Part shown: one piece after another, positions 20,421-48,986 of the stretch
Position numbering within the stretch: position 1 is the stretch's first letter
How the letters are laid out: the number at the start of each line of letters is the position of its first letter
From: Sphagnum magellanicum
Lineage: Eukaryota; Streptophyta; Sphagnopsida; Sphagnales; Sphagnaceae
Direction of reading: 5' to 3'
NCBI GenBank assembly: GCA_021904315.1
Contig: CM038920.1
Coordinates: 15,190,001 to 15,254,000 of the forward strand
DNA length: 64,000 bases
Position numbers and translations under genes: made by a program
The notes under the pieces: model-generated
Told to the model about the DNA's origin: nothing
Databases searched by the model: none
What the model saw: the letters and a program-made list of their open reading frames with translations, nothing else

Positions 20421-20448
20421 AACACATTTAATTAATTTAGGACTTTAC
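20421..20448 (+). repeat. Left terminal inverted repeat of the giant element
   Basis: 28 bp from AACACATTTAATTAA to GGACTTTAC. It matches the right end except for a 2-bp and a roughly 18-bp gap. The first GTGGCCACCAAG site follows about 70 bp further in. Confidence 0.82.
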
Positions 20449-20517
20449 AAAAGTCCAAAAGTGCCAAAATAAAATTTACAATGTTATTTTTTTTTTAGTC
20501 TTTCAATTTTTAAATGA

Positions 20518-22456
20518 CCTAGTGGCCACCAAGATATGGTTGTTAACAACAAGGAAACTTTAAAGCTCTTAAAGACAAATTTACAATTTACATCCCAAGT
20601 TATACAAATTAAACCTTGTGGACACCATGGGAGGTTTTTTAACAATTAAAAATAAATAAAAATTGGAGGATGTCAATTTAATGAAATATAATAAACAAAT
20701 ATCAAACATACATGATTAGATTAAATCCAAATTGAACCTTGAAACGTGGTGGCCACTAAGCCTATAACAAAAGGAAAATAAGCTATAGCATAGTGAAAAT
20801 CTAGACTACATAACATAACAAGTCTATTTAAAGAAGGGAAAAAGTTGCAAAATTTGGAAAAATTTAATACATAATATAGCTAAACAAACTTAATTAAATG
20901 TTTTAAATACAAATTGAACTTGGTGGCCACCATGTTGTCAAAACACCTCATGTAATTTCTTTAATGGTCTTGAAACAAAAACTCCACTATGAAATTTGTA
21001 TAAACCTTAATAAAGGATAGCCTAAATTGGAAGCATAATTTCAAAACACTTGAATTGATTTCTCCAAGAGTCATGGGATGAAAACTCCACTATTAAAAAA
21101 TCATTTAAAAAAAGCGTAAAATAAAGTTTTTATAAAATGTGAAACATAATGTCAAATCCTCCTAGTCTTGTGATTTTCCATGTTCAAATATGCAACAACA
21201 TCAACATCATTTCGGAATAAAAAATTGAGTGGCCAACATTTTTTTCTACCATTCAAAACTACAAACGACAATGCGCAATTTGCGAACAACAATCCAAATC
21301 AATTGCAAACAAAAGTTAATACTAGAAAATGAGGGCATATGAAAAGATATAACCATGTAAAAAGTTATGCCTAGAAAAATGGTTTACAAAATGAGAATAA
21401 ACTGGAATAATGAAATAAAATGATTCAGAATACTTAATACCTAAAGAGGGCAAGACATTGCGAACAATGCCATTATCACTACCCATCACTGGAGGAACTA
21501 ATAGTAATTCTTCGAGGACAAACTTAATCAAGCTTAGAATATTTGATTATAAAATCATAATGAACTTGAACCATTTGGCCAATATCAATCCAACCAAGGA
21601 TGGCCACAAACGAGATGCAAGGTCTAACCATTACACCTTGTTATTCGACAACATTTGTCCCCTGAATGATTCAAGAAAAATACCACTCCATTTGGAATTC
21701 CGGAGTGCCTTGCTAAATTCATCATTAATGAATAATGTTTGATCCTCCTTCCCATAAGGCAGTCCATGACAACCATGATAAACACATTTCAAATCCTTTA
21801 AATAATAATGGGACCTGGGTGAAATTTCACTACTAGTCTTGGAGCATTGTTCATGTCCCCAAATGAAAATGAACCGATCCACAAAATTTTCAAGCATATA
21901 CATTGGAAGAACCTCTAGCACATCTTTAAATTTCATACAAGACCAAATTGCAACGTAAATTTTTTCAAATGTTTTTGTAAGAAAATCTTCCACTCCAGTT
22001 TTAAATTCCACTTTGGCTTTGTTAACATTTCTTCCAAACATTCTGGCATTCCCTTGCAAAATATCCAAAGGTGGGAAATAACACAACACACCATTGACGC
22101 TATAAATCAACAATTTTTTCAATCCAAGAGGTGATGAATGTACACGAGAACGTGTTGAATTGCGTTTAGTCATTGCTACGGGGCCTAAGGGCACATTTAA
22201 TTAAAAAAACAACAAAATATGTCAACAAATAAATTACACATTCACGAGATGATATGTGTTATCCAAATTAAAAGAATCAATTCATGTGTTAAGAATATTA
22301 ATTATTTTTTGGTTAAATATGAAATACCAAAAAACATAACTGCATCCAAGCGGCCGTTTGGTGGCCACCAAACAACACAATGATACTAAAAAAAAAGGAA
22401 ACAAAATAAGACAAATATTCAACTATGTGCATGAGGTGCTTAGTGGCCACCAAACC
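20518..22456. repeat. Left subterminal GTGGCCAC palindrome cluster
   Basis: Dispersed sites centred on GTGGCCAC occur at about 20522, 20748, 20924, 22361 and 22443, with relaxed forms near 20625 and 21227. Several are flanked by CTTA/TAAG or TTTG/CAAA, making a longer palindrome. The one at 22357-22373 reads TTTGGTGGCCACCAAA. The same motif recurs at the right end of the element and is almost absent outside it. Likely protein-binding sites, by inference. Confidence 0.7.
21631..22194 (-). pseudogene. FCP1/NIF-like (HAD superfamily) domain, copy 3
   Basis: A 187-codon frame resembling NLI-interacting-factor or small CTD phosphatase domains. These HAD enzymes remove phosphate using two Asp in a DxDx(T/V) motif. 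Here motif I reads SVNG at residues 32-35 after KKLLIY, so both catalytic Asp are lost. Motif II is IWSC at 83-86. A family-typical FIWGHEQC lies at 110-117, the motif III Lys is in YLKDLK near 131-136, and the acidic motif IV is IND at 156-158 (usually DD). The frame is open but the active site is gone, so it is a relic or a pseudo-enzyme. It is the last of three related segments in the same orientation inside the giant element. Confidence 0.6.
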
Positions 22457-22790
22457 ACATGCGAACCAAATTGTGGAATGGAATATGGTAGCCTAGAAAC
22501 ATGTTTTAGAAATTAGTAATTTTCAAATGAGAAGGTCTATTTTACATTTGAGAACGACCAAGTCATATGGACAAATACATTAAATTGGATTGGAGCTAAT
22601 TAGCCTTGAAAACAAATTAATGAAAACAAAGCATGCACCCATGTTAAATCAACATATTAAACCCATTCATGCATAATAATTTAACAATAAACAATAAATG
22701 TTTCATCTATTTTATTTACAAATCTAGATTTAACTTTGTTAAAAAAAAATCATCACATTTCACAAAACAATGAGTATTCAATTTTTCATA

Positions 22791-23608
22791 CTAGGGGTCA
22801 TTGGGAGGCACGTCCATAATGCTACCGAAAACATTCAATTCTACAAATTTATAAATTCGCATTTTGAATGAATTCAACAATTCCAAGTATGGGAGAACAA
22901 TGTTGAACAAATAATTATCATTAGTGGGAGACCCGTAAAAAGTCTCAAAGAAAATGGCACTACAAGGAGGATTAAACATAATCTTGTGAAGTGTGTCATC
23001 TACTAGCAAAGTATTTTCAAAAGTCGTACTAATAAAAAGACAAAAGAAATCCTTTAGGTTTTTATGAAAAACAGGTTTGTCAAGCTTTTCCAACAAGAAA
23101 TGATCATTTCTAAAACAAAGAGTTTGGTCCAATATTCTTAAAGTTGGAAGGAGAATGCTTATTTTCTCAGTGATTATGTTTAAGTGCCTTGAAAAGTTCC
23201 TCTTCAAATTGCCGATGACCATATGTACATTGTGAATTTCTTTACACAAGCGAAAAGGAACTCTTTCAAACCAAGCCTTAAAACATTAGGGTGAGATCTA
23301 ATTTGACCCTCACTAGTTGCCACAAGAACACCATTCAAGTCGAAAATCAAATGATAGTCATTCACCTCCACTGCAAGCCGAGTTTGCTTTAAAGAACCAA
23401 ATTTCATTCCAATTTGTTCACGTTGAGTATCTTTAGCAAAACCAGAAGATGGTGTAATTTTTTGTCCACTATCTTTTGCAAAACCTGAAGACCTTGCAAT
23501 TTCATGGTACCTATCACTTTTAACACCAAAAGTCATTGTAATATTTTGTGAAACAAAATCCATAGGTGGATTAATCTGAAACAAGTCAACTTCATCCAAG
23601 GCAACCAT
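22791..23608 (-). pseudogene. FCP1/NIF-like (HAD superfamily) domain, copy 2
   Basis: Two overlapping minus-strand frames (23608-23204, then 23249-22791) form one domain split by a frameshift near 23205-23250. The first has a Ser/Lys-rich lead with the repeat SSGFAKD (residues 40-46 and 54-60), then LIFDLNGVLV with motif I DLNG at 90-93 (first Asp kept, second Asp is Asn), then YIWSSA at 128-133 as motif II. The second frame supplies the rest, with LLVDDTLHKI as an intact motif IV (DD) and FNPPCSAIFFETF after it. Of the three copies this is the closest to a working HAD fold. The Asn in motif I still argues against normal phosphatase chemistry. Confidence 0.65.
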
Positions 23609-24125
23609 GCAAACAATTTTGGCTAATTACACTTGATTTTCGACGCATAGTGACCCACATACAAAAGTCGTAACCTATACTTTCCAAAAATCAAACATAT
23701 TTTAGAATAAAGGATCCCAAGATATAAAAAACATAATTGAAGAAAACAAGATTCAACATGATCATATTCATTCATTCGAAATTACCAAAAAGGGATTTTG
23801 AGTTCATTGGCCAATGAGTAAAGGGCCAACAAGAAAGTTAATTTTATATGAAATCCTCCCTTGAATACATTGCAAAATTCAATATTTAACACAATTCTAA
23901 GTAACAAATTATAAGGCCGCACAACCTCCATACAATATTTTTAACACATCATTAAATTCAATATTTTGAAACATATTATCAAATTTAGCTTCAACTCAAT
24001 TATAAACAATCGTTTGACACCATGTTATAAGAAGAAAAATTATAGTGTTTGCCATAAGAATCTAAAAGTCGTCAAAACTTAATATATGTTTTAGTGATCT
24101 GCCACATCGTATCAAAAGGATTGTG

Positions 24126-24826
24126 CTACACAAATGTAAACACAGAATCGCATGTGGAGTGAAAAGCCTCCAAATAGTGAAGGACTTCACCCATCAGGTA
24201 TTTCAAGGATACGTCTACCCTACCATTCCATTTTTCAACTAACATGACATTCTTTATTGGGTTTCTCATCATCCTTACAAGATTGTGGTCTACAAGGATG
24301 GTGTTTCCAACATGTGTACTTAGGACTTTATCAAAGAAATCCGTAAAGCACTTATGGAAAACCATTGTCTTGGACTTGTCAAAAACAAAATGTGGTTATT
24401 TTTTTGACATAGCTCACAATCAAAAATCCGCGAAGCATCGACATTAAAATCTATATATTCTCTCATTTCACTCAAGAATAATGGAATCTTGTAAGGCTTG
24501 CATTTAGTCCAAATATACATTACCAACTGTTGAAGACATCTTTGCATGAATTCTTACAAGTTTGGTCCAGGAATAACATAAGGATCTATTGATGGATTTC
24601 TATACCATTTGGCACGAATTAGAGTGCAAGGTTTAAAGGATTTTCCTTGTTTTTCAAAAACTCCCCTCAAGCTGAAGACAACATGAAGGGGACTCACCTC
24701 CAAAGGCTTTAGATGATCATGATAATAATATTTCGATTTGACATTTGCGGGTGTCACATCTTCATCACTAAGTTGACTAGAACAAACATCAATTGATACC
24801 ATCAAAACATAACATGTAAATAACAA
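24126..24826 (-). pseudogene. FCP1/NIF-like (HAD superfamily) domain, copy 1
   Basis: Three minus-strand frames (24826-24554, 24547-24320, 24365-24126) make one broken domain. The first contains LHVVFSLRGVF, where SLRG stands in place of motif I, and a following segment ending in PGPNL that leads into the helical cap. The second has MYIWTK as motif II. The third has NTILVDHNLVRMM, a motif IV with the second Asp replaced by His. A stop at 24551-24553 and at least one frameshift separate them. It is upstream of copies 2 and 3 in transcription order, so the three could be a tandem multidomain gene or a captured gene duplicated within the transposon. Confidence 0.55.
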
Positions 24827-25689
24827 AGGTAGGTCAAGTTATAATTCCATGTACACTCGATGCAAAAAATTATAAATGAAAATAATCAAAAGAAGAAGAA
24901 AATTCATTGTCGAATATAATGTTGTTTCCTTCACATTCTTGAGAAAAAAATTTGAAGGTTTGTCCACAAGTAAGGTAAAACTCTACAACCCACAAAACAA
25001 CACAATTAGTAAACACTAATCTAACTAATAATGGTGGGCCGACAATCAAGTAATAGCATAAGGCCCTCCATTAATTATCTCTTAGTAGTTGCCAAACAAT
25101 TGTGGGTGTAAGGCACCTTACTATCACCTAGCAATCGTTAGGTGATAAGACGTGAAAGGTGTCTTATAATGATGTGTCTTTTACCCACAATCACTTGACG
25201 ACCACTAGGCGATAACCCAAGCCCATTCATCAACTCTAACCTGGGGGTGACCAAGCAATACTCAAACATTTCTTATTACCTATGGCCTAGCAGTCATTAG
25301 GTGATAGTTTAAAACCGCACATTATGTTTTTCATTAATTAATTATCATATAAATGAACTAAACACACAATGTTTTATAAATTTCTTGGGGGCCGCTAGAC
25401 ATTGTTTAGCACACAACCTAGCTATATCCCACAAAAATGCTTGTTACAATTATCATGGAAATGAGTTAATGTATCAACAATAAGTAAGCTCTAAGTATAA
25501 CATCAAGTCCAAGGCATATATAACAATGCAACTAGAGGAAAATCTAGTCCATTACACAGATTTCATTAAATAATTACACACCACAAAATATTGTTCACCC
25601 ATGCATACAACCTTTACATCATTACGATTATTTATGTTCATTAAAATGAATTAGAATTCAAACAATTTATTTAATCGACCTTTGTTTTA
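24827..25689. other. No gene; scattered CTAGG-type palindromes
   Basis: No supported frame. Imperfect palindromes related to the 45-bp array occur at about 25080, 25130 (CCTAGCAATCGTTAGG), 25195, 25287 and 25388. Confidence 0.5.
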
Positions 25690-28600
25690 TTCACCCCACA
25701 AAATTGTATGAACTCAAAACATTTAGTGGAGGTTCGACATCACACAATTCCTCACCAGCTTTATAACTTTCATCTACATCAACTACAACTAGAGTTGGCC
25801 TTAATGATGAAGCTATAGATGTATTGACCATCGACATGTTTATGGATGCAAGCACATTGTCCTCCTTTCGTGAATCCTCTTGATCATGGCCACTCGGTTC
25901 TTCAGGTGCCTCCTAGTAGGCTTTTGGACTAGCTTCCTATGCAAATGGAATCACCTCTAGTGTTAGTGGAATTGGACTATCATTGTTCTTTGGATTTCAC
26001 CCCTAAAATCGACCTTTTTTCCTCACCGGTTGGCTTTTACTCATTAGCTGGTTATTCATATTTGAGGTCCTTTTCTTATTTTTACCTCTTGTAACATAGC
26101 CAGGTTTTTTCTTGTTGACCTTTGGTGGATTCAAGTGTTCAAGTGTTTGAGACTAATTCATGGCTTCTTTTTCAATAAGTACGATGATAACATCTTCATT
26201 GTCCTCAACATTAATTTGAACAGCCCTATGATCATTAGAATTGATTTGGGCGGTTGAATTCTAGTGTTCCAAGTCGCGACACCGGTTAGCATGTGAAGAC
26301 TAAAACCATCATTTCGCAACGGTTTCCTTCAATATCTTTTGAAATGATTTCAAGAACCTTACATTTATTTTCTTGGTAACTAGAAGGTAGGATTAGATAA
26401 CATCTATATTTAAGGATATTTGTTCATAAAACATAAAATCATATAGTCGATAGGCATTAATTGGACATAGGTCACAAGACCTCCATCGAAGATATTCAGA
26501 CAAACCATGCCGCTCAAAATTATAAGTTCTAGAATTCACAATATTTTTTCCAAGGAAACCTCATGCTTGTATAATTGTCAATCTTTTGGAAACACATAAA
26601 TTGGTCATTCAATTAATGTTGACAATTTATTGCTTGTAAGAATATCAACGCCCACATTTGTTCCAATTTTACAAGGGAACAAATATGTGTATATCAACAC
26701 ATGATTGTTTAGTAAAATCATTGATTGAAATGGAACCTCTCCTCATGCCATGTATTGCCCAAATTCAAATCAAATATTGGTGACAAAAATTGACTTGCTC
26801 ACAATAGTAAGCAAGCTTTTGAATGACTCCCAATCACATATGCAAGCAACTATTGTAAAATTGGCCTTGATGTTGAGGAGTCCAATAAGAAAAGACTCCC
26901 AATTAAAGCCCTTCTAAACAATGGGAACAACTTTTGTACTGTGTGTTGTATAGACGATATCGATGGTCCATGTCACATCATTTTATAGGAATGATGCCAA
27001 TGATTCCTTGTTGATAACATCCATTAAGCATGACATGTTATCAATTCTATCATACTTGTAATGACTATCCAACAAAATGACCTATACTATAACATCTTTT
27101 GCACTTCCACTCTGGATCCACTTCTCCAAAGAGCATTTAAACCCTGAAGGTGGAGCCTCATCTGAAGGGTTTAGTCTCAATGTTTTTAATAGAATTTGTC
27201 ATTGAGCTCCGAGTCCAAAATAGAGAGCAACATCTTGTCAAGGTTGTGCTTTTCTTTCAACGTGTGCCATTTGTCATCCAAATAGGGCTTCTAATTATTG
27301 GCGGTCGGCTTCAGATGACCAAAATGAATCAATATTTCATTTTGGATAACAACCTTCCTTTTCAAAAGCCTTGTAAACTCGTACATGGACTTCAACTTTG
27401 GCCTCCTTCCTTTGGTTGGACGCTCCCTCAAAGTTATTGTTTTCACGAATAGCCTTTTTGCTAACTTCTCAAATCAAATCTCTTTCAAATTTGCCAAGCA
27501 ACCAAAGGCGGATTTGCTAATTGGTTTTAGCAAACATGCAAATACATCTCCAGATCCATCAAGGATGTTGCACCTTTCCCATTCAAAGAGGGCATTTTGC
27601 CACAATTGGAACAACACATTTGTCAACATCAAGATGTTCATTCATTCCTTTGTGGATTCCACATTCAACATGGGCTTCAATGTCTCCTTGAATTTCTATG
27701 CAACATGTAAAACAACAAGAAGGATTAATAATAGAAGTAAAAACAAAGGAATATTTCATAACATAATGTGATAATTTAAATACCTTGTATTCGTTAGAGT
27801 GTCAAAGAGAAGCATCCAAATTTGGATGTGGTTATTCATAAGCGTCCCAAATCCAATGTGCATGTGCAAGGTTCTCCTTATAAGAAGGCTTCATTCCAAG
27901 GTCACAATCCTTGTTCAAAATTTTCAAGAGGTTGCAAATTTTCACAAAATTCGTGTCCCACACAATGATTATTTGGAACTTGTTGTAAATCTTTCGAACA
28001 CAATCCTTTATATTGGGATCTTCCACCAATTCCTATTAATACAATCATATTTTACTAATCCATTCCTTCCAGCCATATCATTTGCATTGCAAACAAGTAG
28101 GTATGTCAAAGAGGAACAATAAATGCAAAGACAATGCACCTTTGTTACAACAATTAGAATTTGATGGTTTTGCATATCCTTCCACTTCCTAGGCTTTTGC
28201 AATAGAATATGTCCTGGACTTTTGGGGTCCTTTAGAATTGTAAATATTGGCACTTTTGTGTCAAACTTGTTATACTACATATTCATTTTTTTGATCTTGT
28301 TTTTATGTATATTCAAAAAAGGCCAGTATACAACGTTTGGGGGTGCTTTTTAAAAATAATGAACATCGACCGTAACACCTAGAACTAGGTCATTTCCCAA
28401 GGGAAAGTAATATGAGAACTTGTCTCCTAGTGTGTTATCTAACTTTGTCCAAAAAATCTTTTTTTTTCTATTCCTTGGTTTTTCCTTTTGTGGTTTTTTT
28501 GTTGGGCATGGCTTGCTTGAGCCCTCAAAGTTAGTCATAGCCCATTCAAAGGCCCTCTAGGAGTCTTTTGACAATTCATCTTTCTCAATTGAAACAATTT

Positions 28601-29016
28601 CAAATAATTCATCCCAATAATCACATGTGCAATTTTTTCCTTCAATTCCTTAATTTGGAAACCTTTCTCAACACTAGTTAGGGACAATTCATCGCTAGTT
28701 TTGTCAATTGGGCAAACAAGACCAACTACTTCTTTTTCAAATCCTTGACCATGAAAATGACCATTGCCAACTCATGAACCCAAACCTTCAATGGATGGAT
28801 GGCTTCTTTTTTTATGGAGTCCTCATTATCATTCTTGATGAATTGGAACTCTATTAAGGATTCATGTGTAGGCATCAACCTCACGCCCCCAGTCGATACG
28901 CTTTTTGAAAGCATCCAAATTCTGAGCTTTACCTTAGGATAATATTGGTTGACCCCCAAATATTCACCAATCACCTTCTTTAGCAACGTGGGTGTGTACT
29001 TGCATGTCAAAAACAT
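25690..29016 (-). pseudogene. Long decayed minus-strand coding region, unidentified
   Basis: Read from 29016 downwards, the minus strand gives long stretches of protein-like text interrupted by stops, many where TGG or CAA/CAG codons would suit. Pieces include the open frame 29016-28726, a Lys/Pro-rich stretch at 28538-28440 (KKPQKEKPRNRKKK), FTIVACICDWESFKSLL near 26855-26800, and IYTYLFPCKIGTNVGVDIL near 26690-26635. A charged, Pro-rich tail with KKKPGYVTRGKNKKR lies near 26120-26070. I recognise no domain. Its size, orientation and place behind the array suggest one large gene of the giant element, perhaps over 1,000 residues. The plus-strand frames at 27150-28122 are probably shadows of it. 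Confidence 0.45.
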
Positions 29017-29135
29017 TTCAGAAATATGACCTTAAATTATTGCTTGAGACACTCAAGGCGTCCAAGTGATTGAAAACAATATGATTTAAAAATGCATAGC
29101 CATCACCAAATGTTTTTTTGAAATGCATTGAAAAT

Positions 29136-29741
29136 CACTTAGCAGTTGTCAGGCGTTTTTTCGAAAATGAACTAAGAAATGCATGGTGGCCACTAAGCGA
29201 TTCTCAACATCGTGACATAAGTAATTCCTCGCAGTTACCAAACATTTTTTAGCGTTAAGACTTGAGGAATGCTTAATAGCCGCCAAACATTTATTCACAA
29301 TATAATCTATGAAACGCTTAGCGATTGCGAGGTGTTTTTCAACAATATAATATAAGAAACACTTAGTGGTTGCTAGGCATTTTTCGACAATATAAGCTAA
29401 GAAATGCTTGGTGGCCGCTAGGCATCTCACGCTAATATAATCTTAAAAACACATGGCAGCTGCCAATTATTTCTCAATAGTATAGGCTGAGCAATGTTGA
29501 ATGGCTGTTAGGTGTTTTGCACTAATATAATTTTAGAAACACCTAGTAGATGTGAGGTGTTTCTTAACAGTATAGGTTGAAAAATGCCTCGCGACCGCCA
29601 GGCATTTTTAAAATTATATTCTAGAAAAACATTTGGTGACTACAAAGTGTTTCTTGTTAATATAATCTTAGAAACGTTTAGTGGTCACCAAATGCATCGA
29701 GGAAATTAGAATTGGTAATGCCTAGTGACCATCAAGCATTC
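29136..29741. repeat. 45-bp palindromic array, 14 units
   Basis: Unit centres recur at about 29136, 29181, 29226, 29270, 29314, 29360, 29405, 29449, 29492, 29538, 29583, 29629, 29675 and 29718, a spacing of 43-46 bp. Each holds an imperfect palindrome of the type GCTTAGTGGCCACTAGGC, followed by an A/T-rich spacer such as AACAATATAA. The clearest are at 29181 (GGTGGCCACTAAG), 29405 and 29675. On the minus strand, 29430-29149 is open for 93 codons as a 15-residue repeat, just upstream of the unidentified minus-strand relic. It may therefore be a coding repeat, a binding-site array, or both. Confidence 0.82.
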
Positions 29742-30057
29742 CGATTCAAGAAGCTTTAGGAGATTAATGGACTTACAATGGTTTGTTAGCCATTTTGAAA
29801 TTTTTGAAGGTTCTTAGTTTGTGACATTGAGGTCTTTGTTTTGTTGAATATTTGTTTCACATGAATGTTGTTGATATGTTAGGTTAGAAATGGTTTTGTT
29901 CTTTGTGATTCTCCTGCATAAGATATAATAACACTAAATTTTAAGTACAGATAGAGATGAATATGAATAATACTAAGATGGATCTAATGAAAGTTAAAAA
30001 AAATGCAAACAACTACATTAATAATCTTATGCACATAATGAAATTGAAACTTTATGA
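29742..30057. other. No gene seen
   Basis: A/T-rich stretch between the array and the CACTA-type element D. Nothing recognised. Confidence 0.45.
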
Positions 30058-32774
30058 CCCTATGAGAAAAAAGGGTGTTTTGTAACTAGCCTTGCAATTC
30101 AATTTTTGAATTACATCAGACAAATTGCAAAAAGTTGCAATAATTGCAACTCCCCATATATATAGTGCAACTCGTTACAACTCAATTACAACTTTGTCAC
30201 AACAATTCCTTTTCAACTACTATGCAACTCCCCTATGATTATAATCATAATGTCATGTTAATGTCATTTTTCATCCATTCATCAAAATTTAACACATGGC
30301 ATTATAAGGATTTTTTGTGATTGTTTTGAAATATTGATACCCATCATCCATTATGATTATTTGTTTTAGATGGTCTTGGATTATGACACGTGGCACAATC
30401 AAAAGTTGTCATGTAGCATATTAATTGATTTTTGGAAACATATATATACCTAGGTAGGTCGATACATAGCCATAGGTAAGTAAGTTGATATAGCTCCAAC
30501 CTACCTACTTACTTACCTACTTAACTAACTATTTACTTACTATCTAGGTAGGTAGGAAAGTAAGACCTACTTATTTAAGTAGGCAAGTAGGTTAGTAAGA
30601 AGGTAGAATACTAGAAAAATGAACTAAAAAAGTAGCCACATAAGGTTTTTAATTTGTTATGTGTTTTGTCTTTAGGGTTAAGCTTTTATGAGTTCATCTC
30701 AACATGGCACATATATTTTAATGTGAAAATGCAAGAGGAGACACCTCTTTTATATAGTTTGTGAAATGAAATATTGAAGACAAAACATGTGGGTTAAATC
30801 TTTTAATGGAACCCTAGTTGCAATTGAGTTGTAATTACCAAAAACAAAATCACATGTTTTTTGTTTTATTTTAAATTTTTTAATTAATTTGAAATTTTTA
30901 ATTAATCATCTGACGTAATTATTTGAATTAAAATACGATAATTAATTATGTAGATTGATTATATGAACTAGTTAATATAATTTAGATAATTAGTTAGTTG
31001 AATTATTCAAATATTTAATTATCAAATAAGTATCAAATAATTAATTATCAAAATAAATATTTTATGATTAATTATTTAAATAATTATTGAATAATTAATT
31101 ATGTTGATAATTGATGATTTGAATTCGAATAAAATTCAATAATTATTCACTTACATTAATAAAAATTTAAAATTTAAATTATTTGAATTAATTAATTAAT
31201 TTTATATAATTAATTACTGAATTTAAGTAATTAATTATTAGATTTTTAAAATTTATTATCTAAATTAGTTAAATACTAATTAATCAATTTTGATTAATGA
31301 ATTTATATGAATAGTTTATTATTTAGCTTACTTAAATAGTTCATGGTAATTAATTATATTACATATTAATTACTAATTTAAAATTAATAAAAAATTAATA
31401 TTAAATATTAAATAATAAACATGAATTTGAGTAAAAAACATTGAGGTATATAAAAACATATTCATATGTACACCTTTATTTAATTACTCACTTACATGAA
31501 TAAAAAAATTCATTTAAAATTATTTGAATTAATTAATTAAATATATATAATTAATTACTGAATTGAAGTAATTAATTATTAGACATTTGTTTATTTATTA
31601 TCTAAATTAGTTAAATACTAATTAATCAATTTTGATTAATGAATTTATATGAATAGTTTATTATTTAACTTACTTAATTAGTTCATGGTAATTAAGTATA
31701 TTACATATTAATTGCTAATTTAAAATTAGTAAAAATATTATTAAAATTTAAATAATAAACATGAATTTGAGTAGAAAACATTGAGGTATATAAAGACATA
31801 TTCATATGTACACCCTTATTGAATGTTTAATAAAATATACACATTGCTTTTAATTTCAATTCAAAAATAGATTTTCACCTTTCATGAAATTCTATCATTT
31901 GATATGTATGTATATCAACATAATATTGTGAATTCCAATGTAGTGAAATATTATTAACACAACAATTGAACATCAAACACAACAAATAGGACTATAATAT
32001 TTATTACATTATTTAAATTTTGGTTATTTAGATAATTACGAAAATGAATTATTTTAATTAATTAATTCAATAAAGGAATCGACTCATATCACTGAAACAT
32101 TTAATAATTTAGTTTTAAAAAGTTGAAGTGTATAAACAATGATATATGTATGTGTATATTCATAAACATTTTAATACACCATTCCAATCCAATTGAAGGC
32201 TTACATTTACACTTTCAATGAATTGCCACATAGTTGAAAATTAATTTTAGATGAGTTGAACACTCTAGGTCCAAAATAGTGGACAAGTAGTGGTTATGTA
32301 GTGAAACCATAGTGGCACATTTTATTGTAATTTAGTTGTAAAATTAGCCAATTTAGTTGACTTTTAGTTGTAAACAAATTGCAAGTTCTAGATGTTATGG
32401 ATTTTTACTTAATCGTACATGTGGCATGATCATACGCATCAACACCGTATGCCGATTGCAAAGTAATTGCTTACTCAACGCTAAAGCTACACTAGTTGTA
32501 ACATAGTTGAAATTAACCATTTCATTGCAACTTGTGATCATGGTCAAACTATGGTTAACTATCACCATATATATTTTGCATACATATGCTCGTATAAAGT
32601 CCAAGTTACAATTAATGTGCAATTAAATTATAATTATGAAATATTCAGACATGGCATTTCAATTATTAATTCATTGTATTTCCATACTATAATTATACCC
32701 TAGTTGCACAATAGTTTTTGTGATGATCTAGTTGCATGTTAATCTAGTTTCCGTGGACACAATTTCTTATAGTG
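30058..32774 (-). mobile_element. Non-autonomous CACTA-type element D, 2.7 kb
   Basis: Left end CCCTATGAGAAAAAAG and right end TTTCTTATAGTG are degenerate CACTA-type termini. TGA flanks both sides (30055-30057 and 32775-32777), a 3-bp target duplication. Subterminal AGTTGCAA and GTTGTAA motifs are dense in the first and last 500 bp. A CTAC/GTAG palindromic core (about 30445-30610) next to an ACACGTGGCACAAT motif matches the cores of elements A, B and C, though the rest is diverged. Orientation is given to match element C. No transposase is present. Confidence 0.78.
31148..31826. repeat. Tandem duplication of 341 bp inside element D
   Basis: CACTTACAT starts at 31148 and again at 31489, and the following 330 bp are repeated. 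Examples are TACTAATTAATCAATTTTG, AATAAACATGAATTTGAGTA and ACATTGAGGTATATAAA. The copies differ by a few percent. The DNA is almost pure A/T with no coding content. Confidence 0.85.
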
Positions 32775-33342
32775 TGACACATTTATTTAAAATTTGACTT
32801 TGAATCAAATGTAGACATAGAGAAACTGAGGGGCAATGCCTAATTAGAAATAAACACATATAAATTAGATGATGAGTTATACACAAGGAAGTACAATCAT
32901 AGAAAATGCCAATCATACATATAATGCAAATGATAAAAACAAGGCCAAACATATTGAGACAAATAAAGTGAATGATTATTTGTACACATAATATGTTAAT
33001 CATAAATAGAAACTATCATTAGTAAGATTGATATTTCAAAGACAAGTTCACACAAATTTGGACAATGGTAATGAAATAGAATCTGAAGTATAACAACATA
33101 GAGACTAACAAAGACATAAGTAGACAAATCATACATAAGCATACATGCACATACATAAGCATAGGGATTTGATATTGCACATGTTGATTGGTAGAAGTAC
33201 ATTTAGCATCAAATGCCCTTAAAATCAAACCCTTTGTTAGTGCTTCATAACTATAAACACATTGAAGGATACAAGGAATTGACATTGGCACACATAAGTA
33301 CATAAGATGAATATTTAACGGGAAAGTGCAAAGATTGGGTGA
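32775..33342. other. No gene seen, between CACTA elements D and B
   Basis: Several overlapping minus-strand frames of 68-108 codons lie here. They overlap one another in different frames and show no recognisable domain, so none is called. Confidence 0.4.
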
Positions 33343-35146
33343 CACTAGTAGAAATCAGCCAAAATGTAACCATTCCATTTATGACTACATGCGACTAATA
33401 GTCGTTTGCGACTAGATTTGAAAATATTTGTAACTACAAGACCAACTTTCAACTATTTTGGTCATTTTCACAACTATGATACAATTATTAGAAATTTCAT
33501 CCTATTGGTTACATCAATTTTACATTTATTTTTATCCATTAATAGGTTGATATGTCCCATTAGTTGCAATAGTCACCAAATTAGTTGCATCCTAAAGGTA
33601 TTATACAATGACATAGGGGTATATTTGAATGTATGTACTAAAATTATATATATATTATGCATACATATGTATATTGTTCATATAATGAATCGCAAAATTA
33701 ATATTTGAACTTTGAATTTTTTTATTCAAATTTGAAAATTGTTATTTCAATTGTTAAAAACATTATTTGAATTTGAAATTTTTGATTTGAATATGATATT
33801 TTCAATTCAAAAAGACTGATTTGATCTAAAAATTGATTTTGAATTCTAAATTAATATTTTCAAATCCAAAAATTAGTATTTCAATTCAGAAAATTATAAT
33901 TGATCATAAAAATGGAATATTTTGAATATTCCATTTAATTTTGAATATTTTTATGTGAATACGAAAATTTATATTTTAGTTATGAAATTTTTTCATTTAT
34001 ATTTTAATAATCATTTTATTCGAACTTGAAATTTAAATTCCAAATTATATTTTTAAATATTTTATTATTTATGAGTTATGTATTAATAACTTGTGAGTAA
34101 CTAAGTAGCTAGTTTGTCAAATATGAAGAAGGTATTACTTATTTAAGTAATTGATAATGAATATTGAATATTTGTAGTGTATAGCTTATAATTTAAATAT
34201 ATGTAAATTTCATCATTATGAATTAAATGATTATTTAATTATTTAGTACTTGAATTGTTTAAAAATCTAAAAACCCTAGAAGTAAGGGATGAAGAAAGTT
34301 TTGGAATTACAACTTAGTTTGTAAGGAAGTTGCAACTTCAAAACTTATCCCATATTGTTTGTTTTCCATTCCTATTTTGAACACTATACAAACAAAGGGG
34401 TGTGCCTATGCAATTTCACATTAAAAAGTTTGTGCACATGGGATGAGCTAATCAAAAGGCTCAACCCAAAACAAAAATACAAATAATGCACAATTCTAAA
34501 GTACATACCTCCTCAACTTACTTATCTATTTAGCTAGGTAAGTACCTAGTTTGACTTACCCATCTAGGTCAGCCTATATACCTACCTACTTAAGTACCTA
34601 CTTATATGAATAGGTATTTAGCCTAGGAAGGTAAAACCTACCTATTTATTTTTTACCTAAGTAAGTAGGTAGGTAGGTAGGTAGGTAGGTAGGTAAGGAT
34701 TGTAGGCACCTATTTATGTACCTACCAACCTAATATTAATATTTTTATTAAATTAAAATTTTAATGCCAGGTGGCATATTTACATTGGGCCATGTGTCAT
34801 AATATAAGATCATTTAAGTCTTTGAATTTAACGTCTTATATTATTTCAAAATAATAATAATAATAATAATAATCATATATTAAGACATGTGGTAGCACAT
34901 GATTTGCCTTCAATTATGACCAAAATAGTTGCATATTAGTCGCATGTGATAATACGTATACAATGGAGTCAAAGGATGAAATGTATTTGTTGACTTTTTC
35001 TTTCATACAATATTCTTTGTCATTTGCAATTATTTATCACATGCGACTTGTCTTAGGCGACTAAAAGGATTTTAGTTGCAAAATGTCTTTTGCGACTAAA
35101 ATTTAGTTGCAAAGAGCAGTCGAAAATACATGTTTTTCTTCTAATG
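33343..35146 (+). mobile_element. Non-autonomous CACTA-type element B, 1.8 kb
   Basis: Starts CACTAGTAGAAATCAGCC and ends TTTTTCTTCTAATG, flanked by TGA on both sides (33340-33342 and 35147-35149). Dense GCGACTA / AGTCGC / TTGCAA subterminal repeats lie at both ends. It is closely similar to element C but lies in the opposite orientation and lacks about 1.3 kb of its interior (the break is near 34048). The CTAC/GTAG core at 34510-34700 includes an uninterrupted GTAG microsatellite (about 34664-34695). It has no coding capacity. Confidence 0.93.
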
Positions 35147-38158: not shown

Positions 38159-41100
38159 CACTAAAAGAAAAACATGTATTTTCGATTGCTCTTTGCGACT
38201 AAATTTTAGTCGCAAGAGACATTTTGCAACTAAAATCCTTTTAGTCACCTAAGACAAGTCGCATGTGATAAACTAGTTGCAAATGACAAAGAGTATTGTA
38301 TGAAAGAAAAAGTCAACAAATACATTTCATCCTTTGACTCCATTGTATACGTAATGTCACATGCGATTAATATGTAATTATCTTGGTCACAATTGAAAGC
38401 AAATCATGTGTTGCCACGTGTTTTAATATATGATTATTATTATTATTATTATTTTGAAATAATCTAAGACGTTCAATTCAAAGACTTAGATGATCTTATA
38501 TTATAACACGTGGCCCAATGTAAATATGCCACATGGCATTAAAAAAAAATAATTTAATAAAAATATTAATATTAGGTTGGTAGGTACATAAATAGGTGCC
38601 TACAATCTTTACATACCTACTTAAGTAAAAAAATAAATAGGTAGGTTTTACCTTCCTAGGCTAAATACCTATTCATATAAATAGGTACTTAAATACGTAG
38701 GTACATAGGCTGACCTAGATTGGTAAGTCAAGCTAGGTACTTACCTAACTAAATAGATATGTAGGTTGGGGAGGTATGTACTTTAGAATTGTGCATTATT
38801 TGTTTTTTTGTTTTGGGTTGAACCTTTTAATTAGCTCATCCCATGTGCACAAACTTCTTAATGTGAAATTGCATGGGCACACCCTTTTGTTTATATAGTG
38901 TTCAAAATAGGAATGGTGAACAAACAATATGGGATAAGTTTTGAAGTTGCAACTTCCTTATAAACTAAATTGTAATTCCAAAATTTTCTTCATCCTTTAC
39001 TTTTAGGGTTTTTAGATTTTTAAACAATTCAAGTACTAGATAATTAAATAATCATTGAATTCATAATGATGGAATTTACATATATTTAAATTATAAACTA
39101 TACACTACAAATATTCAGTATTCATTATCAATTACTTAAATAAGTAATACCTTCTTCATATTTGACAAACTAGCTATCTAGTTACTCATAAGTTATTAAT
39201 ACATAACTCATAAATAATAAAATATTTAAAAATATTTAATTACTTTTCAGAATCTGATCGAACTATATATAATATAATTAATATGAAATTAGTTTAATGA
39301 CTAAAATTTAAAATTAAATATTTTAAATATTTAATTTAAAATTATATATCATGAATTAAAAATTGTTATTAGAAAATAAATTCTTACACAAAATTTTGAA
39401 AAATTATTATTCAACTAACTACATTATTTATTGTATAACAAAATTTATTGTTGTAAAAATTATTATAAGTCAAATAATTTTTTTCTCTTGGTAATTATTA
39501 ACTATAAATACAATAATTTGTTAAACATAATATTAATTTTCATAATTACTGTAAAATTACTATAAAATATTTATCATAGATGATTAATCACAGAATTTTT
39601 AAAGATAATATTATTGTATAATAATTCGTGAAATTAAAATCAGTAAAATAATTATTCTAACTACACTATAATTTTTCCAAATTTTTAATTCAAGTTTGAA
39701 GTTATAAATTAAAGAGTGTGAATAATTATGTTCAATTAGAAAATAATCATGCACATACTAATTAATTCTTATATGAAGTAATTACAATGATTTTAAAGTA
39801 ATGTCACATTAATTTAATTAATTAATTTCTTCTAATATAAGAATATAAATTATATAATATACAAATCTATGTCATAACAATAATTATTTAGTGTCACTTA
39901 GATTTAATAAACATAATCATTTATAACTATTTATAAAAGTGATTTATTATGGATAGCACTAGTAGAAAAAACCTTTGAAATTCAATCAATAATTTTTTGA
40001 ATCAAAATATAAATTTAAGATTCTAAAATAGTAATTCAGAATTTAAATATCAGTTTTTTGAAGTTTTTAAAAGTTAAATAACAAATTTCAAAATTGAAAT
40101 GTTAACTTTCAGATTCAAATAATAATATTCAAAATTAAAATTTACATTTGAAGACTCAATTAATAATTTTCTGAATTGAAATATTAATTTTGAGAATCCA
40201 AAATAATAATTTGGAATTCCAATTTCAATTTTCAAGTCAAATAATTTCTTAAAATTTAAATTTTAAACTTCAAAATTCAATTACCAAATTTCAAGTTGAA
40301 ATAAAAATATTTAAAATCAAGTTGCCAATTTTTAGAATCAATAAAGTTTTTTAAATTGATATGATAATTTTTAGATTCAAAAATAATAATTTAGAATTCA
40401 AATATCAGTTTTTAGATCAAATAATTTTTTTGAATTTAAATAACAATTTTCAGAATTGACATGTTAATTTTCATATTCAAATAACAATATTCAAAATTGA
40501 AATGTCCATTTTTAGACTCAATTACTAATTTTCAGACTTGAAGTATTAATTTTGAAAATCTAAAATAATAATTTGGAATTCAGTTTCGAATTAAATGATT
40601 ATTTAAAATATAAATGAAAAGTTTTCATAGCTGAAATATAAAATTTCATATTCACATAAAAATATTCAAAATTAAATGGAATATTCAAAATATTTCATTT
40701 TTATGATCAATTAGTAATTTCTGGATTCGAAAATATTAATTTAGAATTCAAAATTAATTTTAAAATAAAATCAGTCTTTTTGAATTGAAAATATCATATT
40801 CAAATCAAAAATTTCAAATTTAAATAATGTTTTAAACAATTGAAATAACAATTTTGAGATTTGAATAAAAAAATTCAAAGTTCAAATATTAATTTTGCGA
40901 TTCATTATATGAACAATATACATATGTATGCATATTATATATATATAAAATTTTAGTACATACATTAAAATATACCCTTATGTCATTGTAGAATACCTTT
41001 AGGATGCAACGAATTTGGTGACTATTGCCACTAATGGGACATATCAACTTATTAATGGATGAAAATAAATGTAAAATTGATGTAACCAATGGGATGAAAT

Positions 41101-41250
41101 TTCTAATAGTTGCATCATAGTTGTGAAAATGACCAAAATAGTTGAAGTTGGTTTTGTAGTTGCAAATATTTTCAAATCTAGTCGCAAATGACTATAAGTT
41201 GCATGTAGTTGTAAATTGAATGGTTACATTTTGGCTGATTTCTATTAGTG
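38159..41250 (-). mobile_element. Non-autonomous CACTA-type element C, 3.1 kb, inverted
   Basis: On the plus strand it starts CACTAAAAGAAAAACATG and ends GATTTCTATTAGTG, flanked by GGT on both sides (38156-38158 and 41251-41253). Read on the minus strand it aligns with elements A and B along their length: subterminal AGTCGCAA repeats, the degenerate 30-bp ATTTGAA units (about 39960-40900), the CTAC/GTAG core (38590-38790) and the ACACGTGGC motif. At 39959 an internal CACTAGTAGAAAAAA mirrors the internal end-like sequence in element A. No transposase. Confidence 0.93.
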
Positions 41251-43276: not shown

Positions 43277-43486
43277 TTGCCCCATAGATTCCTAATAAAG
43301 CACAGTGGCAAGATTGGCATGGAAGTGACAATGCGAGGAAAACACATTGAAGAAATCAAACACATGAGAATGTGTGCTATTAAAGGCAAAAAGATCAATG
43401 GGTCACCCAAAATAAGCATTGGGAAAGGATGGAAAGAGTTCAAAACAACTAATGAGTTGAAAGTAGGGGACCATCCTTCACTTTAA
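43277..43486 (+). pseudogene. B3 DNA-binding domain fragment
   Basis: A 69-codon frame reading like the middle and end of a plant B3 transcription-factor domain. IPHRF-like MPHRFLIKHSGKIG at residues 1-14 resembles the first strand and loop. KISIGKGWKEFKTTNELKVGD at about 46-66 matches the family's GWxxFxxxNxLxxGD signature. The ORF ends just after this, where the last strand should be. No upstream coding exon was found. Known B3 proteins bind DNA in development and hormone responses. This piece is too short and isolated to act alone and is probably a gene fragment carried inside the giant element. Confidence 0.55.
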
Positions 43487-46059
43487 ATAGTTGTAACATT
43501 GAAAATTGTAATGAGTTATTGCATTTTGAAGGATATTAAGTTGAAGGATAATTTATTTACAACTTTTTTTCAAATTTGATTTAACACCACAATGTGCATG
43601 AAAATGGCTAAAGAAAAGTCATTGTTTTTTAATACTTGATTATAGATGAATTATTTATTTATTTATTAATGTTTGTGAATTAAGGGGCACCCATCAAAAT
43701 AGTGGGCATTCACACTACAATAGTGGGCATCCACATCAAAATAATATCTTAACCATGTAGGTTAAACTCCAGTATATTTCAAGGAACATCAATGTGGGAG
43801 AGAAGGGATAAAGAGGGATAGTTGCCATCTTGTATTGAATTTGGAATGTTGGTCCTCTACTTGAGCAACCTTAAGGATACTAGTTCAAAACTTAACATGA
43901 AACGACAAAAGCAAGCCCAAAAACAAGGTGACTTACAAGATATTAAATTTATTGTATAACTAATGTCGAGTCGAGTCATTGATTTGTCACTAGCATTATA
44001 ACAAATATGGGTGATTATGCTATTAGGGTTTCATAGAATTCATGAAACCTAGTTGCACAAAAGGGTACTTAGGGCATGCCCATTGCCATGTGCATGACAT
44101 TGGGCCTTCATGGCAACCATGTATGACCCTATCATTCACATGTAAATTGCCATGTCATTGCTATGAAATGACATCATAGTGGACATTTTTTTATGGTCAA
44201 ATCTCCATTAACAAAGGATATACCACAAAGTAGAATCAAATTACAACCATGGAGTGCCAATTTTATTTTACATGTGTTGAAATATATTGTTACACAATTA
44301 TATTAGATAAATTTTATGTGTAAAAATGAATAAAATTTATAATTTCAAAAAATTCCTCGAGGCTTGGAAAATATTCCTTATAATTATTACGTGCCCCATT
44401 TATTTGACCCTTAATTTAAATGGAATAATATTCTTATAATATTATTAACCAAGGATGAGATATGAAAATATTCCATACCAAGGATTTGTGCAAATGTTAA
44501 TGATAATAGCCATTTTGTTAAATTCCATAAAATTTGCATAGTTTTGAAATTGAAAGGGGTGAGGAGTGCGGATGAAGAGGTTTGTTGAAATATTATAAAA
44601 TTAAAGGAGTAATAATATGTGCACCAATTTTCAAGCCAATTTTTAATCATATTTCCATTTAGTTTGTTTTAGTCTCCTATCCAAGTGAAATAACACATAT
44701 TTAATTACTTAAAAATTTTACAAAAGTTTGAAAATCCAAACAATAACTTGACAATGTTATATTTATTCAAACTTTCAATTATAAATCACCTAGTGGACAC
44801 TAGGACTAGAAGGAAAAGCTTTTTAAAAAAGAACAAAATTTAGCTTTGTGGGAATGTCCTTAAATCTATTCATGAAGGAAAAAATAAAATTCGGAAACAA
44901 TAATATGTAGGATTGTTGATCATGATTTATTGCAACAAGAACAAGATTTAATTTGAAAAATAAAATGCAAGACTCACATTATATAATAAGTCTAGTGTTA
45001 TATGATATCAAACTTTGAAAGAAAAAAAATTCAAAGTTATGAGTTAACTTCTTTTTTGGTGGACAAGTTGAAATCATGAGTTTATGATGATGCTGATGAT
45101 GAAAATAACAACATGGTGCAATGTTGTAATGTTGGCTGAAAAAATCATAGATTCGACTACATGTTGAGCTAAAAACAAATCTAATTGTGCAAATGTTCTA
45201 TTTCTCATAGTTGTTGATCCTTTTTAATCAACAATAGTTATGGAAATAAAACATTTGCACAATTAGATTTGTTTTTAACTTAACAATACAATTCAATCTA
45301 TAATTTATTTTTAGTTGTCATTGCAATACGTGTGTCAAGTTGTTAAGTTGTTGTTTTTTAGAAAAAATCTACAACCCTAAATTCAAAACCTTAAACCATA
45401 ACCTCAAACCCCCTAAACTTTAAAAAATAGAAATATGTTGAATGGTACACTACATCCAAACTAAAATATGACTCATTTATAACAACATAAACAATTATGA
45501 CATGGTGGCCATTAAGAAGATGATTTTAAAAAGAAACAAAATCTTGAAAAATTTAGTAAAAAATGTAAGTTATAATGTAACAATTTTGATTTTTGTTGGG
45601 TAAAATGCTTTCAACACAAAAAAATGAAATGTAATAATATACACAGAAAAATTATATATAATGTTGCATTCCATTTTTTTGTGTTGAAAACAAACATATA
45701 TATAGACACATAGAAACTAATTAACTAATTAAACTACAACTTTATATTTTAGCTTCAAATTCATATTTGAACTATGTTGAATTATTTTTTTAAAAACATA
45801 CAAACATAATATCCACACGAAACAAACATACAAAACATCCACATGAAACAACATAAACAAGTTGAAGAAGAGACACCATTTCAATTTTGATGTAAAAAAA
45901 AAAGGTTATGTTTTTGCAAAGTGTATTTTGTGAGATTCATTGAAGGATTTAATATCAACATTGGGAAGGAATAACACTGATGCGAGAAAATATGAATCAA
46001 AGTTGAGAAAACACCCCTTGCATCAATAGTCATGTAGAAGCTTATACCATACTTGGAGG
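43487..46059. other. No gene seen
   Basis: A/T-rich interior of the giant element. Isolated GTGG-type palindromes lie at 44788-44804 (CCTAGTGGACACTAGG) and near 45503. The phrase AGTGGGCATTCACA is repeated near 43700-43730. No supported reading frame. Confidence 0.45.
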
Positions 46060-47600
46060 TCTGAGTCTATGTGGTCCAAAGATGAATTCCTCTACATTAT
46101 CCATGACAAAATGGATCATGCAAAAACTACACTCCCAAGGTTGTAGGTGGCGAGCAAAATGATTTGTGGGCTTAGACAATCACCCATTATGTTGATGGGT
46201 ATGATAGCCCGTCGTCATGTCAATGAGATATATGCACAAATTCCAATCAGTTGTGGCTTAATGATCCCAATTTTACAATTGGGTCATTGTTGTGGCTTTT
46301 TCGAACTTTGGAGAAAGCTCAAGCTTGCGAGTCTAAAATGTTGCTTGAGCACCCTCCCCAAAATGCACTTTTTGCATGTCTTTTGCAAGGAAAATCTCAT
46401 TGTATAATTGAATTAAAAACACCAAGTCAAAGTGTGGGCCCCAAATTATGGCCAATTTTTTTTTGCTTCAAATGGTTAATTGTGTGAAGGATAATAAAAA
46501 TAGGTATTCGTTAGCATTTCTTTTGTTATTGACGGCTAGGGAAGTGTTTGAGGAGGTTAAGTTGGGATTCCTTGTGGTTGGTCATACACATGAAGATATT
46601 GATGGATGCTTTGGATATTTGTCTAGAAAGTTAAGAAAATAGAACAATTATATTTTGGTAGATTTGATGAAGGCTTTCATGGTCTCACAAGAAAGATCTT
46701 TCATTTTGCAATTGATTCAAAAAATTCCAAATTTAAAAACCTAGGTCCTTAGTTGTTTAAAGGATGGTTCAGAAACTTTAGTAGGGCATATTAATATGCA
46801 TATTTTTAGATCTTTTGTGGATTCATTTTGTTGGCTTGTGATGCAGTATAAAGTTTCACCAACCGTTAGCATTTGGACTCCCATAGAAAGGCCTCCAATC
46901 GAATTATGGAAAACTAATGCAAATGGATCTCCAAAGCTACCTACTGGGGTTCCTAGCCCTGTTCCATATTGCCCAATTTGGGGCCATGATGTAACGAGGT
47001 CAATGGAAAGGGAGAAGTTTATCAATGCTAGACTGTCTAAATACATGGAACTTTGGAAACAAGGCATTGAACAAAGTGTAACTTATGTGATGAAGATGAG
47101 TTCGTATGTGGATTACTAGGAGCATATTTGATTACATTTGTCAAAACCTTTGCCTGCTCTAGGGTCGACTCTTTTGGAGGGCTTTTGGCCTTTTAGCAAT
47201 TGGAAGTTGAATTATGTAATAGTTGAGTTGTCGTCCACAACATTGGTCATTGATTCGAATGACCCGATCATTCATCCTTATTATGGGCCCAACAATTTGA
47301 AGAAGGTTCTCACATACACCTTGTTTAGAGATATCAATAATGGAGATTTTATTTTCGTGAGGCCTCATGATCCTTTCCTTGTCCCTATTTAGTTGAAGAA
47401 CACATAATGATGTTGTTAAGGATGATTAATATGAAAATTTCAAAATGGTGAGGGTGCAATGGTGGGTCATAGTGAAAAACGGGTCAAATTTGGATGAACA
47501 ATGTTTGTATAAAGATTGTTGGAACGGCAAGTAGAAATGTAATTTGGTAGATCCAAAACAATGGCTCGAGATTACAACTGTTCTTTTTTTTTTACCTTCA
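46060..47600 (+). pseudogene. Transposase-candidate relic with HTHEDID motif
   Basis: Three frames of the plus strand join as one broken protein of about 500 residues. An N-terminal part (46080-46440, two frames) contains IIHDKMDHAK-like and LLWLFRTLEKAQ text. The core 46448-46642 contains NCVKDNKNRY then LGFLVVGHTHEDIDGCF. The C-terminal part (46796-47392) contains YCPIWGHDVTRSME and DINNGDFIFVRPHDP, with a further frame to about 47600 carrying MVRVQWW. Stops at 46640, 46743, 47117 and 47390 and at least two frameshifts inactivate it. The DN...HTHEDID arrangement resembles the uncharacterised family I recall as DUF7869 and could be a nuclease fold with acidic residues. An Asp usual before the NCVKDN segment appears to be Val. 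It is the best candidate for the giant element's own transposase. Confidence 0.55.
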
Positions 47601-48937
47601 TGAAAAAAAATACAACAAACAAAAGTCAAATTACTATTTCTAATAATTGTTCTTCTTGAGTGAAAGTGAATTTGGAGGTTGCTAATGCATCCAATAATTT
47701 GTAAAATATGTTTGTGTTATTTAATGAATTTAGTTATAATATATCAAATTATTCATATGTATTTTTGAGTATCCATAATTAGTATCAATCTATTGCTAAC
47801 ATTGGTGTCTTTTAATGTGTGAATTTTTTAATAATTATTTTTTTAGGCGAAGTTAAAAATTGGACTTCTAATTTTTCGCTTTTCAAACCAATAATATACT
47901 TTGTTACACCTAGTGGCCACAAGGACAAATGGTACATAAAATTTTAATCTACTAAAAAATGTTTCACTATGAACACCATTTTTGGATTTGTAAATAGGCA
48001 TGGATTTGTGGATAGGCACAATTGTTTTTTTAAAAAACTCAATGGATTGAGTTTCTCTTTGTGATTATTGGTTACATTCTTATTATTTTTATTTGATGTA
48101 TCATCTAGCAGTGGAATAATAAATTGTTGTGTTTTTGTGTTTGATGAAATGTAATTTTGTTCATTGTAAACAATTTTGTGTACAATGTTCTTTTTAGTCA
48201 TGATTAGTGATATTTGTTGTTGCACATGAACCTTAATCCCTAGTGGCCATTAGGCGTTTGTTTTTTTGTTTCATGACATTGATTCCAAATTTATTATGAG
48301 TTTTTGTATTTTTGGGTTCTTTTGTGTTAGATGTAGCATATTTTTAAACAAATTTTTATCATAAAAAATATTGTGTGGCATTAACATGGTATTAAGGAAT
48401 TTGTTTATTGCAAAAATTTGTGTGTGTATATTGTTAGATACTAGTTTTCGATATATATTTTTGAGACATTAACCTTAATCGCTGGTGGCCACCAGGCTTC
48501 TACCTTTTTTTTCATGGTATGAGTAACAACTTTGGATCCATAGACATTATTGTGATTAATGAATTGGCACATGTTGTGCTTAGTTTTTTAATTTAATAAA
48601 TATAATTAAATTTTTTTCTTATGAATAAAAATACAATTTGATTTCTAACCTCGATAATGAATAACCTATAATTTTCACTTGGTGGGCATTAGGCAAAATA
48701 TTCTTTTCATCATATGAATATATTCATTTTGAAATTATCATATTATATTTGTTATTTCTTTCATGCCCCTTAATGTATAAAAACAATGATTGAAAATGTT
48801 CTAAAAAAAATTTGGTATGAATTTTTTTGAGACTCAACGTATACATGGATGCAAGATTGTTGTTTTTACTTAAATGTAAGGTTACATTTCTTAAATATGG
48901 TGGCCACTAAGCAGAGTTCATACATCCACTAGGTTGG
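47601..48937. repeat. Right subterminal region with GTGGCCAC palindromes
   Basis: No gene. Palindromic sites lie near 47908 (CCTAGTGGCCAC), 48239 (CCTAGTGGCCATTAGGC), 48483 (GGTGGCCACCAGG), 48679 and 48898 (GGTGGCCACTAAGC), getting denser towards the right terminus, mirroring the left end. The minus-strand frames here are Asn/Lys-rich and unconvincing. Confidence 0.7.
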
Positions 48938-48986
48938 GTAAAGTCCTAAATTAACAATTTAGTCTTAAGTTAATTAAATATGTGTT
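48938..48986 (-). repeat. Right terminal inverted repeat of the giant element
   Basis: 49 bp that, on the minus strand, read AACACATATTTAATTAA, then about 18 extra bases, then TTTAGGACTTTAC. The outer 15 bp and the inner 13 bp pair with the left end at 20421-20448. CATA follows immediately. Confidence 0.82.

Follow-up and report, generated by a model that had tools for sequence, protein, structure and literature searches.

A giant DNA transposon with four-base target duplications inside a Gypsy retrotransposon gene of the moss Sphagnum magellanicum

What kind of element placed 28.6 kilobases (kb) of DNA inside a reverse transcriptase gene of Sphagnum magellanicum, and how did it come by its size and its genes? 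The window analysed here is a stretch of 64,000 nucleotides of contig CM038920.1 (assembly GCA_021904315.1; C14:15190001-15254000 in the contig labels used below), and the insert occupies positions 20421-48986 of it, opening with AACACA at 20421 and closing with TGTGTT at 48986. A first-pass annotation made from the sequence alone had proposed one giant inverted-repeat DNA transposon with 4-bp target duplications, nested insertions, captured genes and palindromic arrays, belonging to a poorly described group. We find that the insert is a giant cut-and-paste DNA transposon lodged in a retrotransposon gene, and it is very probably one copy of a giant cut-and-paste family that has a DUF7869 transposase, full members with three genes, and a composite lineage to which the window copy belongs.

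The boundaries first read at this locus, inverted ends from AACACA with CATA on both sides and a Gypsy frame restored by removal of the insert, proved exact to the base. The terminal inverted repeats are about 30 bp long; the left one, AACACATTTAATTAATTTAGGACTTTAC, lies at 20421-20448 on the plus strand and the right one at 48938-48986 on the minus strand, with about 20 extra bases compared to the left repeat. The duplicated CATA stands at 20417-20420 and again, read directly outside the element end, at 48987-48990. When the flanks are fused with a single CATA, a reverse transcriptase-like reading runs through the join with its frame unshifted, ending in ...YKDMKGI on the left side and continuing as PLELVQHRIELD... 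on the right; the interrupted gene (named by eye) is the start region of a Gypsy reverse transcriptase, and other stops are present elsewhere in it. The host genome, 438,994,042 bases in 31 contigs, was searched with the joined flanks (300 nucleotides, 150 from each side). This gave 292 candidates, 40 of which were scored; 38 of the 40 cross the join at 80-86% identity, and the other two are the window copy's own halves. Related Gypsy copies thus do carry the empty site that the first-pass annotation had suggested looking for, and the insertion was therefore single and precise. A long terminal repeat retrotransposon was considered and rejected, as the ends have inverted orientation and none of the 20 largest repeat families listed is a long direct repeat that joins them.

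Both ends are multicopy in the host genome, in agreement with the proposed multicopy group. With the first 300 bp of the insert as query (40 scored of 104 candidates), the match starts at query base 1 or 2 in 37 cases and at base 6 in three, so the ends are no chance likeness. With the last 300 bp (40 scored of 141 candidates), the match extends to 3 bases or fewer from the terminus at 21 places, breaks off at base 268 at 12 and ends elsewhere at seven; copies of the base-268 class that are directly readable are without the window's extra bases at that point and then reach the same terminus. The proposal had been made to depend on whether other loci pair these two ends, and they do: for 12 of the 40 left ends a same-strand right end lies no more than 80 kb away, at spans of 19-63 kb, compared to a mean of 0.24 pairs and a maximum of 2 in 1000 trials of random placement. 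Single copies measure 19.0 to 33.1 kb, and the outer of two nested copies on C14 measures 31.3 kb, counting a 22.5-kb family member that lies inserted in it. The long spans on C19 (39-63 kb) and C14 (41 kb) were taken whole, and the end pairing there may be partly wrong.

Terminal inverted repeats are accompanied by a target duplication of constant length, as expected of a cut-and-paste element, since exact 4-bp duplications were found at 10 of 13 independent sites: CATA in the window, CATT and TTGT at the inner and outer C14 copies, TGAA on C18, ATAA on C15 and again on C16, CTTA on C2, AACA on C19, AAAT on C8 and TATG at a second C2 copy. The C19 site holds three copies with common flanks on both sides and was counted once, the duplication being visible in two of the three and read from a left end that reads ATCACA in the C19 copies; the boundaries at C16 and C19, where terminal bases have changed, were set by eye. 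A sister copy on C18 has a duplication that matches at 3 of 4 bases. No duplication was found for C5 or C14:7813862, whose right ends are degenerate, and the right ends of sister copies on C3 and C11 were not found within the stretch fetched. The sister subfamily (C2, C3, C8, C11 and C18) matches the left end at 73-75% identity; in five copies its left ends lie 26.0-30.4 kb before the DUF7869 gene, so that full length is rather constant. Several C19 copies (at 0.6-0.8 Mb and 16.1-16.4 Mb) have common outer flanks, and therefore a larger unit that holds the transposon seems to have been segmentally duplicated.

The ends are also marked by a short motif. GTGGCCA/TGGCCAC occurs in a left subterminal cluster at 20521-21607 and a right one at 47912-48907; seven related copies together have 40 occurrences in 16.8 kb of end regions versus 37 in 134 kb of interior sequence, and the 35.4 kb of the window that flank the element have two. 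These motifs are candidate binding sites for the transposase. As far as can be told, the palindromic arrays of the first-pass annotation are partly such features, GTGGCCAC-type motifs near the ends, and partly CACTA-type copies in opposed orientation.

The rear part of the putative transposase gene, with frameshifts and stops, lies at 45858-47392 on the plus strand and matches DUF7869 (PF25273, E 7.8e-24 at 46412-46639; also 46448-46855). Proteins of this family appear to share a conserved D-D-38-E pattern, and the best solved matches of their predicted fold are DDE transposases and integrases. In the broken window remnant the QLDN block reads QMVN. For the transposase the pooled ratio of nonsynonymous to synonymous substitution rates (dN/dS) is 0.51 in the true frame versus 0.62 and 0.65 in the two shifted frames. 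By sequence, no family match to Mos1/mariner or to retroviral integrase was obtained beyond a weak one, below cut-off, between 47132-47389 and the retroviral integrase C-terminal domain (E 0.036). Other hosts of DUF7869 proteins are Physcomitrium, Ceratodon, Riccia and oysters; a scan of viral contigs yielded 23 pattern matches, none of them a relative, and the family is not mentioned in the literature searched. The C-terminal part of one such protein (P0003, residues 519-631) is modelled with strands and weakly matches the chromatin readers EBS, SHH1 and Spindlin and other SH3-like barrels, and this part may be a module that binds DNA or chromatin. A second precomputed domain, PF26133, is present in some DUF7869 proteins, and one protein (P0066) has a weak N-terminal match, below cut-off, to Transposase_23 (TNP1/EN/SPM; E 0.023).

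What the first-pass annotation took for captured genes are mostly conserved accessory genes of fixed position and orientation. One belongs to the NIF/FCP1-like family, relatives of the phosphatases of RNA polymerase II (Pol II), and is present in three broken copies on the minus strand. The first, at 21631-22200, is conserved in position and matches PF03031 weakly, below the curated cut-off, which the C16 sister copy exceeds; the second, at 22791-23626, is broken across frames and matches with E 3.6e-5, which passes the cut-off, and with 9e-4, which does not; the third, at 24126-24838, matches below the cut-off at 24129-24395 (E 0.014) and not at 24557-24838, and both of its pieces are conserved in the C16 sister copy. 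The second accessory gene, which we call G2, lies broken at 26758-29031 on the same strand (the stretch above 28791 placed by eye against the C16 copy), and its position relative to the NIF-like gene is conserved. No Pfam family matches G2 over cut-off: the scan gave only a TraM-like match (E 0.002, below cut-off) and a chromate-transporter match (E 0.088), and a longer reading gave no family match.

The arrangement of these genes was examined genome-wide. The NIF-like search gave 399 candidates, of which 150 were scored and merged to 147 loci. Of the 40 left ends, 25 have an antisense NIF-like gene in the first 5 kb of the interior, in 19 cases at 1.03-1.26 kb, and so do 9 of 24 left ends of an internal type described below; in neither set is there a sense-strand one, and random placement gives means of 0.04 and 0.02. 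NIF-like and DUF7869 genes that are neighbours within 40 kb are divergent in 27 cases, convergent in one and on the same strand in 10, with random means of 1.1, 1.0 and 1.8, respectively. G2 has 136 genome matches, entered as 107 loci; the 29 rows left out are 28 second pieces of entered loci and one, C10:10246604, that adjoins a NIF-like gene. It lies 5' of 58 of the 147 NIF-like loci on the same strand, 2.6-12.9 kb off, never 3' of them and three times on the opposite strand (random means 0.35, 0.4 and 0.8, respectively). Pooled dN/dS is 0.46 in the true frame of the NIF-like gene versus 0.72 and 0.93 in shifted frames, and 0.30 versus 0.62 and 1.04 for G2; one NIF-like piece was kept out of the pool (1.32, 1.19 and 0.55 in three pairs). 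The layout is therefore a statistical one: left end, NIF-like gene and G2 on the minus strand, DUF7869 transposase on the plus strand, right end. Because position and strand are fixed and dN/dS lies below that of the shifted frames, the NIF-like gene and G2 are, on balance, genes of the family and not chance cargo.

Two aspartates are catalytic in the first HAD motif. Among 89 database relatives of the NIF-like protein, 18 of 24 pattern matches have NVN, NIN or SVN before GV at this motif, and five of the other six look off-target; the window's second copy has DLN, with one aspartate kept. Some NIF-like copies thus look catalytically dead, and at least some may have a protein-binding role. The NIF-like protein has one weak match to a solved structure (E 0.014). 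The inner C14 copy, the one flanked by CATT, interrupts the outer copy's NIF-like gene, whose halves match query residues 31-80 and 81-212, and therefore nothing was lost at the insertion site.

How the window copy reached its present form can be read in part from its relatives. Three nested insertions (limits within a few bases) lie at 30059-32774 and 33343-35145, each with the duplication TGA and absent from the C15 copy, and at 38159-41249, with the duplication GGT and absent from the C14 inner and C5 copies. One end of each reads CACTA, CACTA and CCCTA, respectively. Because sister copies are without them and they have CACTA-like ends and 3-bp duplications, these insertions are real and CACTA-type, and the element is about 21 kb long without them, just as the first-pass annotation had it. 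A further copy of the CACTA-type family of the second and third insertions lies in the left flank (14078-16919), oriented as the second. The C15 and C5 copies have 5-7 kb more at 45853-45859, including the front half of the transposase; relative to C15 about 5 kb is gone from the window, and the join, with AACA microhomology, is consistent with a simple deletion. Finally, an internal second left end, preceded by TGAAAT, lies at 44692-44805 on the plus strand. Among 40 scored places that match this junction, 12 run across it, 24 start only at the internal end and four break off just ahead of it; the sequence in these four and in the C14 inner copy is TGAAATGTA, which is the state before insertion. 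The single giant element first proposed therefore stands as to its one insertion, but the window copy is a defective composite that carries three CACTA-type inserts and an internal left end and has lost about 5 kb with the transposase front half. Free-standing 12-kb elements marked by internal-type ends on C19 and C10 were considered and dropped, as four have the same outer flank; these ends probably mark a further internal junction.

We propose the following mechanism. The DUF7869 transposase, presumably with a DDE-type RNase H fold, would bind the ends, probably assisted by the clustered GTGGCCAC motifs; the segment between the left AACACA... end and the right ...TGTGTT end would be excised and then reinserted by 4-bp staggered joins, which would leave the 4-bp duplications that are seen. 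Full members carry the NIF/FCP1-like gene and G2 on one strand and the transposase on the other, an arrangement that is seen statistically. The window lineage grew by insertion of a relative, after which the composite moved through its outer left end and the right end, with the inner left end bypassed; this is shown by copies that have the junction and copies that lack it, at duplicated sites that differ from one another. Being defective now, the window copy would have either moved in trans or broken after landing.

Three other explanations bear on this history. The two ends might derive from separate insertions, with CATA and the frame matching by chance, and the internal left end at 44692 does imply that more than one element contributed; the unoccupied site in the Gypsy matches and the repeated pairing of these ends at other loci with matching 4-bp duplications make this extremely improbable. 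The internal left end could instead be an ordinary nested element that arrived after the giant had moved, with no bypass, since nested insertions are common in this element. We consider this unlikely, given that the outer duplications differ among four junction-bearing loci (CATA in the window, ATAA on C15, AAAT on C8 and TATG on C2), and therefore the composite moved as a unit with its outer ends; moreover, neither the C15 nor the window copy showed a second right end in a pattern search of its interior. The NIF-like gene and G2 might also be random captures of host genes, as in Pack-type elements. The C15, C5 and C14 inner copies are without NIF-like genes, and about 110 of the 147 NIF-like loci have no neighbouring left end among those scored, a subset of all left ends; both facts are as such capture would have it. 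It is nonetheless rather improbable: position and strand are fixed beside both types of left end while protein identity to the query falls to 37%, the place of G2 is fixed relative to the NIF-like gene, and pooled dN/dS lies below that of the shifted frames.

To which known group might the family belong? Sola elements make a 4-bp target duplication, a feature that this family has. The target of piggyBac, Kolobok and Sola3 is TTAA; none of the ten exact duplications is TTAA, and these three were rejected on that ground. EnSpm/CACTA elements have CACTA termini and 2-3-bp duplications, features that occur here only in the nested insertions, whereas the giant has AACACA...TGTGTT ends and 4-bp duplications, which rule that group out. 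The 4-bp duplication differs also from the TA of Mos1/mariner. Composite transposons or macrotransposons, for example those with paired Ac/Ds ends, are longer units mobilised by an outer end paired with a neighbour's far end; the window lineage is like them in how it was mobilised and unlike them in that the composite gave rise to a lineage, in which at least 12 junction copies were scored. No Academ helicase or nuclease domain was found in the open reading frames scanned, though these frames are broken, and the absence of KDZ and Academ from the fold matches does not count against either. Six DUF7869 database proteins were scanned, and no match to a KDZ or CACTA family exceeded its cut-off. 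Repbase superfamilies include Academ, Ginger and Sola, among others (PMC4455052). Ginger target duplications are 4-5 bp (PMC10045372), and Ginger1 and Ginger2 were rejected, there being no rve match for P0011, P0014, P0002 and P0034 (E <= 0.5) or for P0056 and P0066 (E <= 1).

The first-pass annotation had set aside superfamilies with 4-bp duplications as usually too small. For Sola1 this does not hold: eight curated bivalve elements average 5445 bp (PMC10294476), but Sola1-1_Ec32 of Ectocarpus is 21.5 kb long and has an accessory gene on the opposite strand, and giant KDZ and EnSpm elements occur there too (PMC12477816), so that size alone excludes no known superfamily. Our family resembles the Ectocarpus Sola1 in size and in an accessory gene opposite the transposase; it resembles the KDZ and EnSpm/CACTA giants of algae in its tens of kb, accessory genes and nested insertions; and in giant Ectocarpus families generally, as here, the transposase is often predicted to be broken and presumably supplied in trans (PMC12477816). 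Sola1 is listed for Physcomitrella (PMC9033089) and found in bivalves (PMC10294476), and because these hosts overlap with the DUF7869 hosts Sola1 is the best lead for a possible affiliation, in a comparison of descriptions and hosts. That the family is a giant, accessory-gene-carrying member of Sola1, with the same machinery and only larger, seems to us about an even chance: a giant Sola1 of this plan is already in print, but the overlap of hosts is only a lead, and the Ectocarpus accessory gene encodes a ParB/methyltransferase, not a NIF-like protein (PMC12477816).

Elsewhere in the window, a long open Copia-type polyprotein of 1321 amino acids (named by eye) lies at 6502-10467, around which stand 300-bp repeats at 4615-4914 and 10438-10737 that are 98% alike. 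A second, broken Copia-like element is found at 53547-57304, with Pol_BBD and gag_pre-integrs in one piece.

These findings describe a giant plant DNA transposon lineage with a conserved multi-gene layout instead of random cargo, and they provide a concrete case of how giant transposons may grow, in which a composite spreads after a relative has inserted and the inner end has been passed over. They also point to a likely function, that of a DDE transposase, for DUF7869, which is still listed in Pfam as unknown and is present from mosses to oysters. The NIF-like partner raises the question of why a protein related to the Pol II phosphatases should be retained in a transposon. We suggest, tentatively and as a possibility that we would not yet favour, that DUF7869 elements form a separate, undescribed superfamily of eukaryotic DNA transposons, which in Sphagnum became giant three-gene elements with a NIF/FCP1-like protein, at least in part without its catalytic aspartates, as a conserved helper, and which grew by fusion with their own relatives. 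If so, the NIF-like helper might target or protect the element through the transcription machinery.

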